A stretch of DNA of 64,000 nt from Silvibacterium acidisoli (GTDB lineage: Bacteria; Acidobacteriota; Terriglobia; Terriglobales; Acidobacteriaceae), in contig CP085323.1 in the NCBI GenBank assembly GCA_022870745.1, positions 2,852,001-2,916,000 on the forward strand, in the 5' to 3' direction. Each line of letters begins with the position of its first letter. Position 1 is the first letter of the stretch. The notes under the pieces were generated by a model. That model did not search any database. It saw only the letters and a program-made list of their open reading frames with translations, and was not told where the DNA came from. The position numbers were made by a program, and so were the translations under genes. Positions 10,800-62,000 of the stretch are shown here, piece by piece.

Positions 10800-12569
10800 T
10801 CAGCGGCCGACGAGCTGCTTGAGCTGAGAGACAACTTCTTCGATGACAATATCTTGACTCGAAGAGGTCGCACGGCTCACCAGCTCAACTTTGCCTTCCG
10901 TCACTTTTTTGCCGACGTTTACCCGGAAAGGGATGCCGATCAGGTCGGCATCCTTGAATTTGACCCCGGCGCGCTCGTCGCGGTCGTCGAGCAGCACGTC
11001 GAAGCCGGCGGCTTCGAGCGATTCGGCGAGCTGCGTACCGGCGGCGAGCAGGTTTTGGTCGGCGATATTCGTGACCGTGACCACCACCTCAAAGGGAGCG
11101 ATCGCCGGGGGCAGGCAGAAGCCGTTGGCATCGTTCGTCTGCTCGATCGACGAGGTCAGGATGCGTTCGATGCCGATGCCGTAGCTGCCCATGATGGGCG
11201 TCACTTCCTTGCCGTTGGGATCGAGCACGCGAGCGCCCATGCTCTCGGTGTACTTGTAGCCGAGCTTGAAGATGTGTCCGATTTCGACCGCTTTCGCAAC
11301 CTTGAGAGGCGATCCGCACTGCGGGCAGGCTTCGCCCTCCGTGACATCGCGGATATCGGCTGCCACCGTCCAGGTGAAGTCGCGGCCGGGCGTTACATTG
11401 CGGAAGTGGTAGTCGAGCTTGTTGGCTCCAGCGACGAGATTCTGCCGGTTTTCGAGGCCATGATCGACCACGACGGTTACGCCGTCGCCGTTTTCCGCAT
11501 GGAAGTCAAGCTTCTTGGCGACGGTCAGACCGATCGGGCCCAGATAGCCGGCGGGTGCGTGGAAGTAGGTTTCGAGCTCGTCCGCCTGCATCGGACGCAG
11601 CTCGGCGCCGCCTGCCAGGGTTAGAAGCTTCGTTTCATTTACGAAGTGATCGCCGCGGAGGAAGGCGACAACAGGCTTCCAGGTTGACTTCTTACCGTCG
11701 CGGACTTCGACCATGTAGGCCACCGTCTTAATGTCCTGCGCGGGCAGGATCTGGAAGAACTCGGCGACATCGGCGATGGCTGCTTTGCCCGGCGTGTGGA
11801 CGAGCTCGGGCATGCCGTCGCCGGTGGGAGCGAGGTCTTCGATCGCTGCCAGCTTCGATGTTGCCTTCTCGATGTTTGCCGCGTATCCGCAGCTGGCGCA
11901 GCTTACGATCAGGTCTTCACCTGCATCGGTATAGACCATGAACTCCTGCGACTGCGACCCGCCCATGGCTCCGGAGTCTGCCTCGACGGCGACAAAGCTG
12001 AGACCGGCGCGAGTGAAGATGGAGCGGTAGACCTTGTCGTGCAGATCGTAGCTCTTATCGAGCCCGGCCTGGTCGATGTCGAAGGAATAAGCGTCCTTCA
12101 TGATGAACTGGCGCACGCGCAGCAGGCCCGACTTGGGGCGCGGCTCGTCGCGAAACTTCGTCTGGATCTGGTACCAGATCTGCGGAAGCTGCTTGTAGCT
12201 GCGCAGTTCCTTGCGGGCGATGTCGGTCATGACCTCTTCGTGCGTCATACCCAGGCAGAGCCACGCGCCTTTGCGATCCTGCAGGCGAAACATGTTCTGC
12301 CCCATGGTCGACCAGCGTCCGCTCTGCTCCCACACTTCAGACGGCATGATGCCGGGCAGCAGGAATTCCTGTCCGATCTTGTCCATCTCTTCGCGCACGA
12401 TGCCGATGATCTTGTTGATCGATCGCTGGCCGAGAAAGAGGTACGAGTAGATGCCAGCGCCCAGCTGGCGGACGTATCCGGCGCGCAGCAGGAACTTGTG
12501 GCTTGCGACTTCGGCGTCTGCCGGAGCCTCACGAAGGGTTGGGACAAAGAGTTTCGACCAGCGATGCAT
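10800..12569 (-). CDS. proS: Prolyl-tRNA synthetase
   Basis: Class II aminoacyl-tRNA synthetase charging tRNA-Pro. It has the bacterial-type length (589 aa), with an inserted YbaK-like editing domain between class II motifs 2 and 3 (about residues 222-410, [27 protein letters not shown]). Motif 1 region is [16 protein letters not shown] and motif 2 includes [25 protein letters not shown]. Motif 3 is [13 protein letters not shown], and the anticodon-binding domain lies at the C-terminus. The insert shows that this is the editing form that hydrolyses Ala-tRNA-Pro. Confidence 0.97.
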
Positions 12570-55828: not shown

Positions 55829-56575
55829 TTACTCGTCCACGGAAAGCGATGCCAGCGCGGCTTCGATCTCCGAAGCCGCCGGCATCTTCTGAAAAGCCCA
55901 TCCGGCAAGCACCAGCGTAGGAGCAGGTCCTGCATCTGTCCTGGCCAGCTCACCCAGGGTGGTGTGAGCGATCTGTTGGTCGGGCTGCGCCGCGCGCGAA
56001 ATGGCGATACACGGCAAGTCATCAGGCAGCCCGGCCTGCTTCCATTCCGCGGCAAGCGCCGAGAAGTCGCGTCCCGGCATGTAGACCACGCGCGTAGGCT
56101 CGGCAATGGCCGGAGGTCCCCCAGTGGCGTGATGCCCCGAGCTGAAGACAATGCTCGACGCTGCACGCCGGTCCGTCAGCGAGCACTGTAACGCCGAAGC
56201 TGCCGCAAATGCCGCTGTAATGCCCGGAACGACCTCAAACTCCACGCCGGCTTCGCGCAATGCGTCCATCTCTTCGGCCGCCCGGCCAAAGACCAATGGA
56301 TCGCCGCTCTTGAGCCGCACGACGTGATGACCCTGCCGCGCCTCGTCGATCATTAGCTGGTTGATCTCGGCCTGCGTAATCTTCTTCGCGCCGCAACGCT
56401 TGCCGACGTTTTCTCGTCTCGCATTGGGAGCCGCCAGTTCGAGCACTGCTTCCGTCACGAGATCGTCGTACAGCACCACGTCCGCGTGTTTCAGCAGACG
56501 CGCCGCACGCACGGTCAGCAATTCGGGATCGCCAGGGCCTGCGCCCACCAGAAAAACCTTTGCGGGAGTTTTCAT
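55829..56575 (-). CDS. cobA: Uroporphyrinogen-III C-methyltransferase
   Basis: SAM-dependent enzyme methylating uroporphyrinogen III to precorrin-2, the entry to siroheme. 248 aa. SUMT motifs: VFLVGAGPGDPELLTVRA, VLYDDLV, GKRCG, VVRLKSGDPLVFGRAAEE, VPGITAAFAAAS, and VVYMPGRD. The ATG at 56575 overlaps the stop of the preceding dehydrogenase gene (ATGA), indicating coupling. Together the two genes correspond to the split halves of CysG, here supplying siroheme to the adjacent reductase. Confidence 0.95.
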   Translation of the reverse strand: MKTPAKVFLVGAGPGDPELLTVRAARLLKHADVVLYDDLVTEAVLELAAPNARRENVGKRCGAKKITQAEINQLMIDEARQGHHVVRLKSGDPLVFGRAAEEMDALREAGVEFEVVPGITAAFAAASALQCSLTDRRAASSIVFSSGHHATGGPPAIAEPTRVVYMPGRDFSALAAEWKQAGLPDDLPCIAISRAAQPDQQIAHTTLGELARTDAGPAPTLVLAGWAFQKMPAASEIEAALASLSVDE

Positions 56576-57186
56576 GCGCGCTTCTCCCAGGCAAGCTTGC
56601 GCGAAGGGCAGTCCTGCGATTCGCACAGCTCTCGCTGCGCCAGCTTGTGCAGCAGCATCTTGCGCTCTTCACCCGAGGGATATGCGGCCAGCACCTCGCG
56701 CCGCAATTCTCCTACGGATTGAAGCCAGGGCCCGAGATCCTGAGGGAGCTGCTCGTCGATCTCCTGCCGCAGACGCTGCGCCAGGGCCGGGCTTTCTCCG
56801 TTGGTGGAGATGGCAATCTGCAGGTCGCCGCGGGTCACAATCGATCCGAAATAGAAATCGCAGTGCGGAGGATCATCGACCGAGTTGCACAGGATGTTGC
56901 GGCGTACTGCTTCGCTGTAAACAGCAGCGTTCACATCAGGACGATCCGTGGCCGCAACGACCAGGAACACTTCGTCGAGATCGGCCTCGGTGAACTCGCG
57001 CTCGATGAGCTCGATGCGTCCCGCGCGCGCCAGTTCAGAGAACTCAGCACGCGCCTGGGGAGCGATCACGCGCAGCCTGGCTTCCGCGCCGAGCAGGGAA
57101 GGGATCTTCTGCAAAGCCACTTCCCCGGCTCCAACCAGCAGGCACTGGCGTCCCGCGAGTTTCACGAAGATGGGGAAGAGGCTCAT
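56572..57186 (-). CDS. Precorrin-2 dehydrogenase / sirohydrochlorin ferrochelatase (CysG N-terminal type)
   Basis: A 204-residue Met8/CysG-N-like protein that oxidises precorrin-2 and inserts iron to give siroheme. The Rossmann motif is GRQCLLVGAGEVALQKIPSLL. The catalytic region VAATDRPDVNAAVYSEAVRRNILCNSVDDPPHCDFYFGSIV is typical, followed by IAISTNGESPALAQRLRQEID. The C-terminal tail carries three Cys-containing turns (RELCESQDC). 8 nt downstream of the reductase gene and overlapping the methyltransferase gene. Confidence 0.93.
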   Translation of the reverse strand: MSLFPIFVKLAGRQCLLVGAGEVALQKIPSLLGAEARLRVIAPQARAEFSELARAGRIELIEREFTEADLDEVFLVVAATDRPDVNAAVYSEAVRRNILCNSVDDPPHCDFYFGSIVTRGDLQIAISTNGESPALAQRLRQEIDEQLPQDLGPWLQSVGELRREVLAAYPSGEERKMLLHKLAQRELCESQDCPSRKLAWEKRA

Positions 57187-57194
57187 GGTCTGGT

Positions 57195-58856
57195 TTAGTC
57201 TCCGGCCGGTGCAGCAGCCAGAACTTCACCGGCGAGACGCACGCGAATCGCTTCCGCGTCATGGCGTGAGAAGTAGGCACGCAGGCTCTCATCCGGGTTG
57301 CGTTCCTGGAGATAGCTGCTCAGCAGGCGCTCAATCGCGGCCGGTACTTCAGTCGCGGGCGCACGATAAGCGATGGGCCGTGCGACTGCGGAATACTTGC
57401 CGACAGCTCCGCCGACGACGAAATTGAAAGCGTCCACCATCTGGCCTTCATGCTTCACCTTCTTGCCTTCAAGACCGATGTCCGCAATCCAGTGCTGTCC
57501 GCAGCCATTGGGGCAGCCGGTCACGTGCAGCTTCAACTGCTGGTCGAAGCTTGGCATGCGCTCTTCGAGCTCATCTACCACCCAGCGTGCAAAGCCCTTG
57601 GTCTCGCTGATCGCGAGTTTGCAGAACTCGGTGCCGGTGCAGGCGACGGTTCCACGCCAGAAGCTCGATCCTTCGACGCGCAGGCCGATCGTTCCCAGGT
57701 CTTCCACCAGGGCCGAGATATTTGCCTTGGGGATGTTGACCAGCAGAATATTCTGCCCGATCGTTGCGCGAAGCTGTCCATCTCCGTATTTGTCGGCGAG
57801 ATCGGCAAGCGAGGCAAGCTGATCGCCGGAGAGGCGTCCGCGCAGCACCGTCGCTCCAACCGAATACAGGCCATCCTGCTTCTGCGGATGCACGCCGGTG
57901 TGATCGCGCAGAACCTCGTCGGGAATGTTTTCTTCCGGCGCCGAATCGAGCTTATAGCCCAGGCGGCGCTCCAGCTCTTCGAGGAAGCTCTCCGCGGTCC
58001 AGTTTTCCTTGAGGAAGAGATACTTCAAACGAGCCTTATCGCGGTTTTCGCGCAGGCCCTGCTGATCCTTGAAAATGCGCGCAATCTCTTTGGCAACGGC
58101 TACTGCCTGGTCCGGACGGACGAAAGCGTCCAGCTTCACGGCGAGGTGCGGCTCTTTCGAGAGCCCACCGCCCACGCGGATCGTGTAACCAACTTCTTCG
58201 CCGCGGCGTGCGCCGGTGAAGGCAATGTCGTTGATCTCGGGATAGGAGCACCAGACCGGGCAGCCGGTGGCGCAGATCTTGAACTTGCGGGGCAGGTTGT
58301 AAAACTCGGGGTTAGCGATCAGCTCCTTCGCCAGCTCCAGCGCCAGCGGCGAGGCATCGAGAATCTCCTCGTGATCGATTCCCGCCAGCGGGCATCCGGT
58401 CACATTGCGGACCACATCGCCGCAAGCGCCCTTGGGGGACAGGTTGATCTTGTCCAGTGCGTCGACAATTTCAGGAATCGACTCGATCGTCAGCCAGTGC
58501 AGCTGAATGTTCTGCCGGGTAGTGATGTCAGCCAGATTGCGGGCATGAGTCTTCGTTATGTCGGAAATTACGCGGAGCTGGTGCGAATCGATGATGCCGT
58601 TGGGCATGGCGATGCGCATCATGAAGTATTCGCTGGCCAGGCCTTCGCCGCCCTTGCCGCCGACCGCGCCGATGCCGTCACCCTGCGTGTAAATGCCCCA
58701 CCACTTGAAGTAGGCGCCCGCCCATTCGGGCACGACGCTGGCACGGCCTTCGCGGGCGAATGCACGAACCTCGTCAAAAATCTCCCAGGGATTCTTCTCG
58801 CGCTTCAGGCGCTCCATGCGCTGGGCTTTGGTCTCTTTTACCGGTACGTCGGCCAT
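57195..58856 (-). CDS. Ferredoxin-type nitrite/sulfite reductase (siroheme, [4Fe-4S])
   Basis: 553-residue cytosolic enzyme for six-electron reduction of sulfite to sulfide or nitrite to ammonia. It contains two NIR/SIR repeats. The cluster/siroheme ligands are C406 and C412 (ACTGTEFCKLAI) and C448 and C452 (VTGCPNGCGQHW). A first-half Cys set (TGCPLAG, ATGCPVWC) is also seen. The family cannot be split by eye between NirA and Sir. The cysteine-rich leader upstream and the linked siroheme genes favour sulfite reduction. First structural gene of a three-gene operon. Shine-Dalgarno AGGGAG is about 17 nt upstream and therefore not optimal. Confidence 0.93.
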   Translation of the reverse strand: MADVPVKETKAQRMERLKREKNPWEIFDEVRAFAREGRASVVPEWAGAYFKWWGIYTQGDGIGAVGGKGGEGLASEYFMMRIAMPNGIIDSHQLRVISDITKTHARNLADITTRQNIQLHWLTIESIPEIVDALDKINLSPKGACGDVVRNVTGCPLAGIDHEEILDASPLALELAKELIANPEFYNLPRKFKICATGCPVWCSYPEINDIAFTGARRGEEVGYTIRVGGGLSKEPHLAVKLDAFVRPDQAVAVAKEIARIFKDQQGLRENRDKARLKYLFLKENWTAESFLEELERRLGYKLDSAPEENIPDEVLRDHTGVHPQKQDGLYSVGATVLRGRLSGDQLASLADLADKYGDGQLRATIGQNILLVNIPKANISALVEDLGTIGLRVEGSSFWRGTVACTGTEFCKLAISETKGFARWVVDELEERMPSFDQQLKLHVTGCPNGCGQHWIADIGLEGKKVKHEGQMVDAFNFVVGGAVGKYSAVARPIAYRAPATEVPAAIERLLSSYLQERNPDESLRAYFSRHDAEAIRVRLAGEVLAAAPAGD

Positions 58857-58882
58857 GATCTTTTCTGCTTTCTCCCTAAGTA

Positions 58883-58907
58883 CAAAAGCCCACCTTGCGG
58901 GTGGGCT
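58883..58907 (-). terminator. Attenuator-type terminator before the reductase gene
   Basis: On the minus strand AGCCCACC pairs with GGTGGGCT (8 bp, loop CGCAA) and is followed by TTTTG. It lies after the leader-peptide stop and 26 nt before the reductase ATG, so it would abort transcription before the structural genes. Confidence 0.75.
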
Positions 58908-58934
58908 GAGCGGTCGATGCGAATCTGTAGCGTT

Positions 58935-59006
58935 CTACTCGCAGCTCCGGCCCAGCGTGAAACAACACGCGTGACAGGCAGCAATGCAAATGGAGTAGAA
59001 AGGCAT
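58935..59006 (-). CDS. Cysteine-rich leader peptide
   Basis: A 23-codon reading frame on the minus strand, beginning MPFYS and containing ICIAACHACC, then ending GRSCE. Five of 23 residues are Cys, including a CHACC cluster and a final Cys two codons before the stop. A predicted promoter places +1 at this ATG, so translation would be leaderless; in fact only AAGAA precedes it. A downstream terminator and then a siroheme reductase gene follow. This is the arrangement of a ribosome-mediated attenuator responding to charged tRNA-Cys. An in-frame ATG at 59027 lies within the promoter and is unlikely. Known cysteine leaders upstream of sulfur genes are described mainly in Actinobacteria; this sequence is not recognised. 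Confidence 0.65.
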   Translation of the reverse strand: MPFYSICIAACHACCFTLGRSCE

Positions 59007-59013
59007 TTCTTCA

Positions 59014-59042
59014 AGGATATTGCGCATAAAGAAAGCGGTCAA
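59014..59042 (-). promoter_or_regulatory. Predicted promoter of the reductase/siroheme operon
   Basis: On the minus strand, -35 TTGACC (59037-59042), a 17-nt spacer and -10 TATCCT (59014-59019). Seven nt later comes the leader ATG. The -35 element lies inside the stem of the upstream receptor gene's terminator. Confidence 0.55.
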
Positions 59043-59077
59043 GCTTGAACCTTGGAGGTTCGAAGCCTGACCGCTTT
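59032..59077 (-). terminator. Terminator of the TonB receptor gene
   Basis: On the minus strand AAAGCGGTCA pairs with TGACCGCTTT (10 bp), with a further imperfect inner stem (GAACC / GGTTC), then CTTTAT. It begins 13 nt after the receptor stop codon. Confidence 0.8.
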
Positions 59078-59089
59078 GTTGAGAACGAG

Positions 59090-62000
59090 TTAGAAGCTGA
59101 AGACAGCCTGTACATACACCCGGCGGCTGGCAGACGAGGTACCGAAGATTCCCTGCTGCAGGGCATTCGACTTGCCGAACTCCGGTGAGCCGAGCACCCC
59201 GGTCGGCGGGGCCAGGTTGATGTCGTTAAACAGGTTCAAAGCCTGAGCGTTCAACGTTAGCGTGTAGCGTCCATGGGTCGGACCCTGCTGCTGGCCCTGT
59301 CCGCCGTGACGTCCGCCCGGTCCACCGGGGCCACCCTGGTTGCCGCTCAGGCCGCCCGGCCCAAGACCGCCGCCCGGAGGTCCACCCTGACCGCCACCAC
59401 CGCCGCCGTGTCCGCCTCCCCCACCGCCGGGCCCGAAACCACCCTGCGGAGCCGCGCCAGCGACTTTGGGGCCGAAGCTGATGGTCTTGCTCACACGAGC
59501 ATTGACTGTTATGAGATTCGGACCATCGCCATAGTAGTTCGGCACGAGCTTTTCACCCGCAGCCAGGCCAGCCGTGGGATCTAGATTGAAGTTGCCGTAC
59601 GCGGTCTGGACTGTGTCCGTATCGCCCGCCTGGGCAAAGGTAGGACGGTCGTTAAAGAACGAATCGCCGTTGTTGTCCTGCCCGGTCGTGATGTTAAACG
59701 GGGAGCCTGACTGCACGACGATAAAGGGGCTCACGCGGATGTTCCACGGAGCCGACCAGCTGCCCATCAGGAAGAGACGATTACGTACGTCGAAAGATGC
59801 CCGTCCGTAGTCCGCCTTCAGGTTGGCGGAATTACTCGGATTGCCAGTCACCGTGCCTACGTCGCTGTTGGCCCAGCTTACCGAATCGAAGCCGAAGATC
59901 GAGAGCTGTCTGCCGAAGCGGGCATTGAAGTTCATCATCAGCTGGTTTTGCTTGAAGACGCCTTCGGAGTAGTACTGGTAAACATTTGGATCGGCAGGGT
60001 TGTACCCGGCCAGGTACGGCGCATTGGCGTTGCGGGTCGTGAGCTGGTGATTGCCGAGCGAGTTAATGTAGGTCAGCGAGAAGGTTGAGGCACGCGTAAT
60101 CTGCCGCTCAATGCCCACCGCAGCCTGCTGGGTAACCGGCGCATGCAGGTTCGGGGAGATCTGGTAAACGGCAGAATTACTTGTACTTGCATCCGTGCCT
60201 TCGCAGGCTGCCAGGTCGGTTGAAGTAATGCTGGTTGCCGAGTAGCAGGAAGGGTCGCGGATTACGACTTCCTTCTGTGGTGAGTCGGCATTCTCGTTGA
60301 GCCGTTTTGCCTGAAGGATTTCGGCGATCTGGAAGCGGTCATAGAAGAATCCGTAGCCGCCACGGATCACGGTCTTGGGCGGCTTACCTTTCCCTCCGAC
60401 GCCCCAGGCGAAGCTCAGGCGCGGCGCCCAGTCGTTCTTATCCTGAATGTTGGACTGCGATTCCCAGCGGACGCCGTAGCTGAGCGTCAGGTTCTTGTTG
60501 GCGCGCCAGTCGTCCTGGTAGTAAAGACCCACATCGGTCAGGCTGGAGACGATATTCGGGCTGCCATAGGCCAGGTTGAGCTGGCTGGGACCGCCGCCGG
60601 TAGCGCGAATCTGTGCCCAGCTCTGCCCCGTACCCAGGCCGCGGATCGTATTCCCGTAGGCCTCAGCAGCCGTGGTCGTGACGCAACCCACCGTGTCGCT
60701 CGTGCACTGGTTGCCGCCAAAGGTAAATTCTCCGTTGAAACTGGAGCTGGCCGTGTTGGCATCGCGTTGATAGCGAAGACGCCCGCCAAAGTTGATCGAG
60801 TGTGTCTTGAGCGCAATCTCGGTCAGGTTCTGCAGCTCGTAGTGCAGCGTGTGATCGCTGATCGTCTGGTCTGGATAACCGCCGAAGGCTTCGAGGCCGG
60901 AGACAGCAGTCTCCGGAGCAGTGGACGACGGAGTGGTCTTCGAGAAGTCGCGCAGGAACTGGAAGCGGGTCTCGTTAATCACCTTGTCGCTCAGGATCTG
61001 CGTATCGCTGATCTGAACGGTGTGCTCGGTCGACGAGGTGTTGTAGGCCTGATCCCGCAGCGAGAACTGGCCCACGCCCTGGTTCTTGTCGTTGTCGTCA
61101 TAGAACTGGTAGCGAACACTCAGCGTGTTCTTGTCTCCCAGCTGCAGGTCGATGCGTGGGCTGATGTTGGTCCGCCCGTGTGGTGTCACCACCGCGTCGT
61201 TGAAGGAGACCGGGGTGTAATCGGCGGTGTTGTTGTAAACACCCGCGGCAAAATTGCCATTGACCTCGCCCTGCAGCCGGTAGGCCGCGACGATGGCGTC
61301 GTCCTGAATGGCGCGATGCTCGGCGCTGACGAAATACGAGGCGTGCTTGTTGATCGGCCCGCTTACCGTGCCGTTGTACTGGTAGCTGTAGTAGTCGGGG
61401 ATGTTCTTGTCGAAGGGGTTACCGGTGTTCAGCTGCGAGGGATTTCCCATGCCCATGAACTGGGCGCGGAACTTGTCCGTGCCCGGCTTGGTCAGGATCT
61501 CGATGCGGCCATAACCCAGCTTGTCATATTGAGCAGAGAACGGATTCTGGTTGATCCGGATCTCGCGAATGGCGGATTTCGGAGGCAGTTCGCCCGCCGT
61601 AAAGCCGTCGATATAGATCTGGCCGCCATTCGGCCCGGCGCCCGGCCCGGCCAGAGCGTTCAATTCGTTCGAAAGCTCGTCCGGATCGTCGGAAAGTGCG
61701 TCGAGATCAGCGCCTTTCAGCACCAGGCTATTGGCGTTGGCCGTCGGATCGACGCTGACGGTCGGAGTGTCCTCATTCACCACTACCTGCTGCTTCTCGA
61801 CGGCAATGTCCATCTTCACGTCAAACTGCAGATTCTGGCCGCTCTTTACCGTGACAGCTTTCGAGCTCGAAGAGGCAAAACCAGGCGCGGTCGCGATCAC
61901 GATATACATGCCCGGCGTGACGCCGCGGGTGGTATACCCGCCGTCCTGGCTCGAGGTCGCGGTGGCGACGGTATGACCGTCCGGGGTAGTCAGGCTGACG

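Follow-up and report, generated by a model that had tools for sequence, protein, structure and literature searches.

A predicted cysteine-codon attenuator with a probably leaderless leader peptide ahead of a probable sulfite reductase operon in Acidobacteriota

Introduction

Attenuators of the trp and his type in Proteobacteria are organised in RNA segments that pair as 1:2, 2:3, and 3:4, with the regulatory codons in segment 1 and a Shine-Dalgarno site for translation of the leader peptide. Short reading frames that carry cysteine codons have been described in other settings. The leaderless polycysteine sORFs of mycobacteria, in the Actinobacteria, are presented as translational regulators (Canestrari et al. 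2020, as related in the available portions of PMC9031893, PMC13236596, and PMC9094748). Candidate Cys leader peptides also lie before cys operons in Actinobacteria; the authors found no conserved terminator hairpin for them and left the mechanism open (PMC1262725). In Rhodobacterales, the element uORFC-8-2 upstream of cysS has tandem Cys codons and an intrinsic terminator, and ribosome-mediated attenuation is proposed for it in the portion of the report available (PMC8632094). We found no description of a Cys attenuator in Acidobacteriota in the literature searched, which was largely open-access.

Here we analyse a locus of Silvibacterium acidisoli that lies in a 64,000-nt stretch of DNA (the window). 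An earlier note on this DNA had read the locus as a probable tRNA-Cys-sensing attenuator of a siroheme reductase operon. That reading is supported by a Cys leader, a terminator, and an antiterminator that are conserved in relatives, from which we infer a response to cysteine. As judged from sequence, the element is predicted, with a probability of about 0.92, to attenuate transcription through a translating ribosome, with charged tRNA-Cys as the signal sensed.

Results

The leader peptide gene and its promoter

The leader region has the following features:

58935..59006, minus strand: leader peptide gene MPFYSICIAACHACCFTLGRSCE, probably leaderless, conserved in relatives
58962..58988, minus strand: presumed regulatory Cys codons 7, 11, 14, and 15 (58988-58986, 58976-58974, 58967-58965, and 58964-58962); Cys retained, flanks variable
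59014..59019, minus strand: -10 box TATCCT, 17-nt spacer, ending 7 nt before the leader ATG; spacing conserved
59037..59042, minus strand: -35 box TTGACC, within a terminator-like inverted repeat behind the upstream gene

The 23-codon minus-strand frame with five Cys codons described in the earlier note is found at 59006-58935 and reads MPFYSICIAACHACCFTLGRSCE followed by a stop codon. The promoter upstream of it is an addition to that note, which had none; this TTGACC-17-TATCCT site is the one promoter-like site in 3 kb, with a mean of 0.6 in shuffles. The window holds 12 distinct frames in which a run of 14 residues includes 4 or more Cys, so Cys codons by themselves would prove little, and of these 12 the leader at 59006-58935 is the only one with a promoter and a strong terminator together. 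Contiguous Cys codons amount to a single CC pair in the window leader, and CCRCC or CCCC is found in many relatives. Behind the outer-membrane gene upstream, a long inverted repeat read by eye at 59032-59077 overlaps the leader -35 box, and read-through from upstream across this repeat could matter to the leader promoter.

Pattern scans gave a mixed return. In the genome that contains the window, a single contig of 5.36 Mb, the strict leaderless pattern had 6 matches, one of them the window leader, versus 8 in the reversed control, so that the leaderless pattern alone is uninformative. The CC-x-CC pattern was swamped (205 matches versus 81 in the control), and of the two sORFs ahead of the outer-membrane gene, the second contains the first match listed. 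One of 149 genomes had a match to a strict phylum pattern. The search for the sulfate ABC family was too unspecific, although a leader did turn up at one locus from it (L157). The window was also scanned for leaders enriched in an amino acid other than Cys and equipped with both promoter and terminator, and none was found.

Genes behind the leader

As the earlier note had it, a nitrite/sulfite reductase gene and siroheme genes come after the terminator:

57195..58856, minus strand: NirA-family nitrite/sulfite reductase, 553 aa, probable assimilatory sulfite reductase
56572..57186, minus strand: siroheme synthase N-terminal type (precorrin-2 dehydrogenase)
55829..56626, minus strand: uroporphyrinogen-III C-methyltransferase

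The reductase has the Pfam domains NIR_SIR and NIR_SIR_ferr, and its best relative of solved structure is 1zj8, 'Probable ferredoxin-dependent nitrite reductase NirA' (E 1.4e-87), which we take to be the M. tuberculosis protein that acts on sulfite. We regard the window enzyme as a probable sulfite reductase because siroheme genes follow it and because, at the related locus L054, cysD-cysN-cysH precede the reductase.

Conservation of the arrangement in relatives

Relatives were collected through reductase homologues, which occur in 9 of 9 genomes of the genus. In the family, 340 of 398 genomes had any match and the best 30 places were taken as loci; from GTDB contigs, the best 80 of 591 confirmed stretches were used. 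Among the resulting 117 loci, 116 match the reductase at 1e-20. We left out L010-L013, which are distant homologues, and L086, L095, and L107, where the upstream DNA was too short. The 109 loci kept, 102 of them with distinct upstream regions, are the closest relatives rather than an even sample.

In 76 of the 102 regions, the 300 nt upstream of the reductase contain an ORF of 10-45 codons that includes 4 or more Cys, versus 5 regions on the antisense strand and 10-18 in five shuffles. Terminator-like hairpins at most 170 nt upstream were found in 94 regions, 88 of them strong; the controls gave 11 (5 strong) for antisense and 25 (4 strong) for shuffled sequence, again out of 102. The distance of the terminator from the reductase start varies from -8 to -115. 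A promoter, a short gap, and a Cys leader stand in register in 81 of the 102 regions, and 80 of these have the terminator too. On a wider and looser rescan of the 21 regions outside the strict arrangement, 11 show a Cys leader with a strong terminator (L053, L054, L093, L099, L104, L020, L058, L060, L077, L114, and L115), and no such pair was seen in L025, L034, L078, L083, L088, L092, L094, L105, L106, and L111, although L034 has a 4-Cys frame. The comparison proposed in the earlier note, for conserved Cys codons with variable flanks upstream of orthologous reductases, thus came out in its favour in most of the 102 regions.

Across the 80 leaders, Cys makes up 23.7% of 1741 residues, with 3-10 per leader and a mean length of 22.8. 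Length, Cys number, and Cys spacing vary among relatives, and the other residues change or track RNA helices; examples are MELTACCRCCMPRRAQR and MSDSCNLRALCCCTCCCCACVCAGAGRLLT. Non-Cys stretches that are conserved in the genus, such as LSRTCE, coincide with antiterminator strands. One leader is shared by a contig of the same genus and a record labelled Silvibacterium sp. (L006 and L040). Leaders are also present where identity is 58-62%, at loci that carry the label Sulfotelmatobacter (Candidatus Korobacteraceae) or Acidobacteriales. The leader is absent from L106, labelled Methylomirabilota, and from L111, labelled Rokuibacteriota, and the NirA-like paralogues L010-L013 have no convincing leader.

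In the phylum outside the family, 33 of 80 genomes have a reductase match, and 30 loci were fetched. A Cys-rich leader followed by a strong terminator was found at three of these (L222, L227, and L228), which represent two families, and the remaining 27 gave no leader. The L222 leader precedes a reductase-PAPS_reduct pair and the L227 leader a PAPS_reduct-reductase pair. The leaders at L227:329-415 and L228:2301-2212, from a different family of Acidobacteriota, have seven Cys codons in a row (CCCCCCC) and a very strong terminator.

Leaderless start and codon choice

With the promoter picked blind to the start codon, 70 of 97 regions have an in-frame ATG or GTG 6-7 nt past the -10 box; a start codon at this spacing occurs in 7 and 0 of 97 in the other two frames. 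The usual transcription start is about 7 nt beyond the -10 box, a spacing that probably places the 5' end of the mRNA at the start codon. The leader mRNA is therefore probably leaderless, to judge from its promoter geometry. Leaderless genes are put at 9.7-19.4% in three Acidobacteria genomes by a published prediction (PMC3160421). Elsewhere in the S. acidisoli genome, two small antitoxin-like frames recognised by eye (74 and 78 aa, L182 and L183) have leaderless promoter spacing.

Codon choice also sets the leaders apart from the genes that follow: TGT:TGC is 276:136 in leaders versus 57:747 in the 80 reductase frames. The preference for TGT could reflect slower reading of a rare codon or weaker RNA structure.

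Terminator and alternative folds in the window

The stretch between the leader and the reductase includes the following elements:

58887..58907, minus strand: intrinsic terminator stem-loop AGCCCACC CGCAA GGTGGGCT, 8 pairs
58879..58886, minus strand: T-rich terminator tail TTTGTACT, interrupted, 5 T in 8
58902..58954, minus strand: antiterminator hairpin TGGGC...GAGC-TGCGA-GTAG / CTAC-TCGCA-GCTC...GCCCA, from the fold and swap-test covariation
58993..59000, minus strand: segment 1 TTCTACTC, which in an untranslated leader pairs with GAGTAGAA at 58940-58933

The 8-bp terminator stem with a U-run reported earlier is borne out, with the stem at 58907-58887 and 5 T in the 8 nt of the tail. It begins 27 nt past the leader stop codon and ends 30 nt ahead of the reductase. 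The earlier note had also proposed two pairings, TGCGA-GTAG with CTAC-TCGCA and TGGGC with GCCCA. Both are present in the predicted fold, not as separate helices but as parts of one antiterminator, a single interrupted hairpin (58954-58902) that joins TGGGC, GAGC, TGCGA, and GTAG to their partners, the last partner being the GCCCA of the terminator. Folded without the terminator 3' arm, the antiterminator has -29.4 kcal/mol (z -1.88), and 13 of 100 shuffles pair equally many terminator-arm bases. The fifth Cys codon (58943-58941) lies inside this hairpin and may be kept for structure.

The pairing of segment 1, TTCTACTC, with GAGTAGAA is a further addition to the earlier note. In the predicted fold of the untranslated leader, the terminator and this 1:2 hairpin both form; the whole window leader folds with z -2.35, and 2 of 200 shuffles are as good. 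The predicted pairing probability of the terminator 5' arm is 0.36 with no ribosome, 0.60 with a stalled ribosome, and 0.06 with the ribosome at the stop codon. Rfam covariance models, including T-box and riboswitch models, gave two sub-threshold matches in 58500-59400 (E 0.045 and 1.3). None was above threshold in this search. A T-box and a riboswitch were considered as candidates and dropped.

Alternative pairing across leaders

The competition between leader folds suggested in the earlier note was followed up by alternative folding across relatives: terminator and antiterminator are conserved, and their pairing covaries over the whole set. Counting from the first base of the first clustered Cys codon, antiterminator folds started 12 nt downstream and ran through the whole terminator 5' arm. 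Over 80 leaders the mean z was -1.16, with z < -1 in 40 and > 0 in 14, and 5.6 terminator-arm bases paired with the leader coding sequence versus 2.4 in shuffles.

In a swap test of each leader tail against terminator-side segments, own pairs had -19.4 and swapped pairs -15.9 kcal/mol (centred, -3.38), with 0 of 5000 permutations for n=78 (L069 and L101 dropped) and the own segment beating the median swap in 59 of 78. The positive control, terminator arms, gave 0, and two negative controls gave 4617 and 4998, of 5000. The whole-set test ignores kinship, so the within-group results are stricter: these were 5, 19, 244, 1035, and 1351 of 5000 for groups A, B, C, D, and E, an effect that is weak or absent in C, D, and E and not significant in D and E. 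RNAalifold found no consensus for the trimmed group C alignment (-0.87 kcal/mol), a failure that we think is due to bulges shifting along the 3' strand. The 1:2 pairing of the 5' part of the leader with its own tail gave 0 of 5000 in the swap test (n=71). The sequences suggest a 1:2, 2:3, and 3:4 pairing scheme in the leaders.

Ribosome positions were modelled with the stalled state defined as a ribosome at the first clustered Cys codon. The mean probability that the terminator 5' arm pairs with upstream RNA is 0.40 with no ribosome, 0.61 in the stalled state, and 0.26 with the ribosome at the stop codon, and it is higher in the stalled state than at the stop codon in 75 of 80 leaders. Pairing is still at least 0.4 in 19 of 80 with the ribosome at the stop codon, and in 38 of 80 with no ribosome. 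In five leaders of the window's genus (L003, L004, L005, L007, and L008), stalled pairing is lower, at 0.20-0.38.

Cysteine leaders at other sulfur operons

Ten genomes were searched for PF01507, and 18-kb stretches around cysD were examined. Nine of the 10 have a Cys-rich sORF ahead of cysD; with at least 4 Cys in 14 residues within 300 nt before the cysD start region, the sense strand gave 9, the antisense strand 1, and shuffles a mean of 0.05 (maximum 1), of 10. In the tenth genome (G040) the leader lies farther upstream, before an ABC-transporter gene (L157 and L178). Terminator-like hairpins scoring 16-21 accompany 5 of the 9 cysD leaders (L173-L177); the hairpin is weak in L179, and none was detected in L172, L180, and L181. 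The cysD leader of S. acidisoli, MRIICHRCCCLRACPTSHGCQFASA (L172:6940-7017), precedes an operon of cysD, cysN, cysH, and TauE-like genes. Neither a terminator nor a fitting promoter was detected for it, and its control is possibly translational.

Leaders also occur in other arrangements. The gene order behind the leader is cysD-cysN-cysH-reductase in L054, and in L099 and L104 the leader is followed by a PF03601 gene that directly precedes the reductase. In L175 and L176 (about 11830-12090), divergent promoters, each with a Cys-rich leader, lie between cysD and a second transcription unit, and in L176 the second leader faces an outer-membrane barrel gene. A related S. acidisoli barrel gene (L172:3468-6623, OMP_b-brl_4 / CarboxypepD_reg) has tandem candidate Cys-rich sORFs, MSLALQICSCCCVSPMQLA and MTASIHNSTCLAACCCRPCCRAL, ahead of it at L172:3204-3411. 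This outer-membrane gene may encode a receptor for a sulfur source.

Discussion

Computation shows the leader, its promoter spacing, the terminator, the covarying alternative pairings, and an association with sulfur operons at the loci examined. By sequence criteria, the Cys-codon attenuator is real and widely conserved. Transcription would start at or beside the leader ATG (59006), and a ribosome could load once the 5' end emerges. When Cys-tRNA-Cys is plentiful, the ribosome would pass the Cys codons and reach the stop codon, which lies inside the antiterminator; there it would cover the antiterminator 5' strand, allowing the terminator at 58907-58887 to form and transcription to end before the reductase. 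When Cys-tRNA-Cys is scarce, the ribosome would stall at the upstream Cys codons and the leader tail would pair with the terminator 5' arm. With the antiterminator formed, polymerase would continue into the reductase and siroheme genes. If the leader is not translated, the 5' hairpin would sequester the leader tail and the terminator would form, giving a basal off state. The many UGU codons of the leaders, which the reductase genes seldom use, may make the response more sensitive. We infer the leaderless start in vivo, the stalling, the termination, and the response to cysteine from this arrangement.

A different use of the same leader would be to act mainly on translation, by release or masking of the reductase ribosome-binding site, with the hairpin being no true terminator. 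In mycobacteria, leaderless ORFs with Cys codons are said to control the translation of genes behind them (PMC9031893, in the part available), and a terminator was not detected for the cysD leaders of L172, L180, and L181. Against this, a strong GC stem with a T tail is found in 88 of 102 regions versus 4-5 in controls, how far it lies from the reductase start varies, and the swap test indicates pairing of the leader tail with the terminator-side segment; we consider the translational reading improbable for the reductase leader. It is less probable still that the frame encodes a functional Cys-rich peptide that binds metal or thiols. Five Cys in 23 residues, and their retention in relatives, would fit such a peptide, but length, Cys number (3-10), and spacing vary, the other residues change or follow RNA helices, the frames are heavy in TGT, a codon rare in the reductases, and they sit ahead of sulfur operons in the loci examined. 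The functional peptide was dropped as a candidate.

The least credible alternative is a chance frame beside a terminator of the upstream outer-membrane gene. The window does contain 12 Cys-rich frames of this kind, and the -35 box lies within the upstream terminator-like stem; yet the upstream gene has its own separate terminator-like stem, and the leader is conserved in genus and family against controls, which already contradicts a chance origin. The attenuator remains our preferred reading, and the leader probably turns on sulfur-assimilation genes under cysteine shortage in many soil Acidobacteria.

We give even odds to a broader proposal: that in Acidobacteriota a whole cysteine regulon, comprising outer-membrane uptake, sulfate activation, sulfite reduction, and siroheme synthesis, could be under leaderless Cys-coded attenuators that head each operon, with a transcriptional read-out at some operons and possibly a translational one at others. 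UGU choice would then be tuned for sensitivity, and the linked outer-membrane barrel would be the port for some sulfur source.

These findings describe a complete-looking Cys attenuator in Acidobacteriaceae, and also at loci that bear the labels of other Terriglobales. Its apparent leaderless start would couple the loading of the ribosome to the very first nucleotides of the RNA. The element would give a function to many small unannotated frames, connect neighbouring genes (outer-membrane barrel, TauE, and PF03601) with sulfur metabolism, and serve as a natural reporter of cysteine in soil bacteria that are hard to manipulate.

The design is known for other amino acids and partly for cysteine elsewhere, and the literature searched gave no account of it in Acidobacteriota. 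Like attenuators of the trp and his type, it has a short ORF enriched in codons for the end product (5 of 23 in the window and 23.7% over 80 leaders), a predicted intrinsic terminator between the leader and the structural gene, and a mutually exclusive antiterminator just after the regulatory codons, as seen over the whole set and not significant in groups D and E. Those leaders differ in carrying a Shine-Dalgarno site, and the amino acid and the phylum are different. With the polycysteine sORFs of mycobacteria, as far as the available accounts describe them, it shares a short Cys-codon ORF, here predicted to be leaderless, ahead of cysteine and sulfur genes; the mycobacterial sORFs answer to cysteine supply, as the Acidobacteriota leader would. 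Unlike them, for which those accounts give no obvious terminator, the Acidobacteriota regions have terminator-like hairpins in 94 of 102 cases and a covarying antiterminator, and belong to another phylum. The actinobacterial candidates in the accessible part of PMC1262725 are similar in having a short Cys-codon ORF upstream of cys operons, with Cys runs near the stop codon. The available description of uORFC-8-2 matches in having Cys codons in a small ORF followed by an intrinsic terminator; it concerns a cysteinyl-tRNA synthetase gene in Alphaproteobacteria and in that portion mentions no leaderless start, whereas the targets here are sulfur-assimilation operons.
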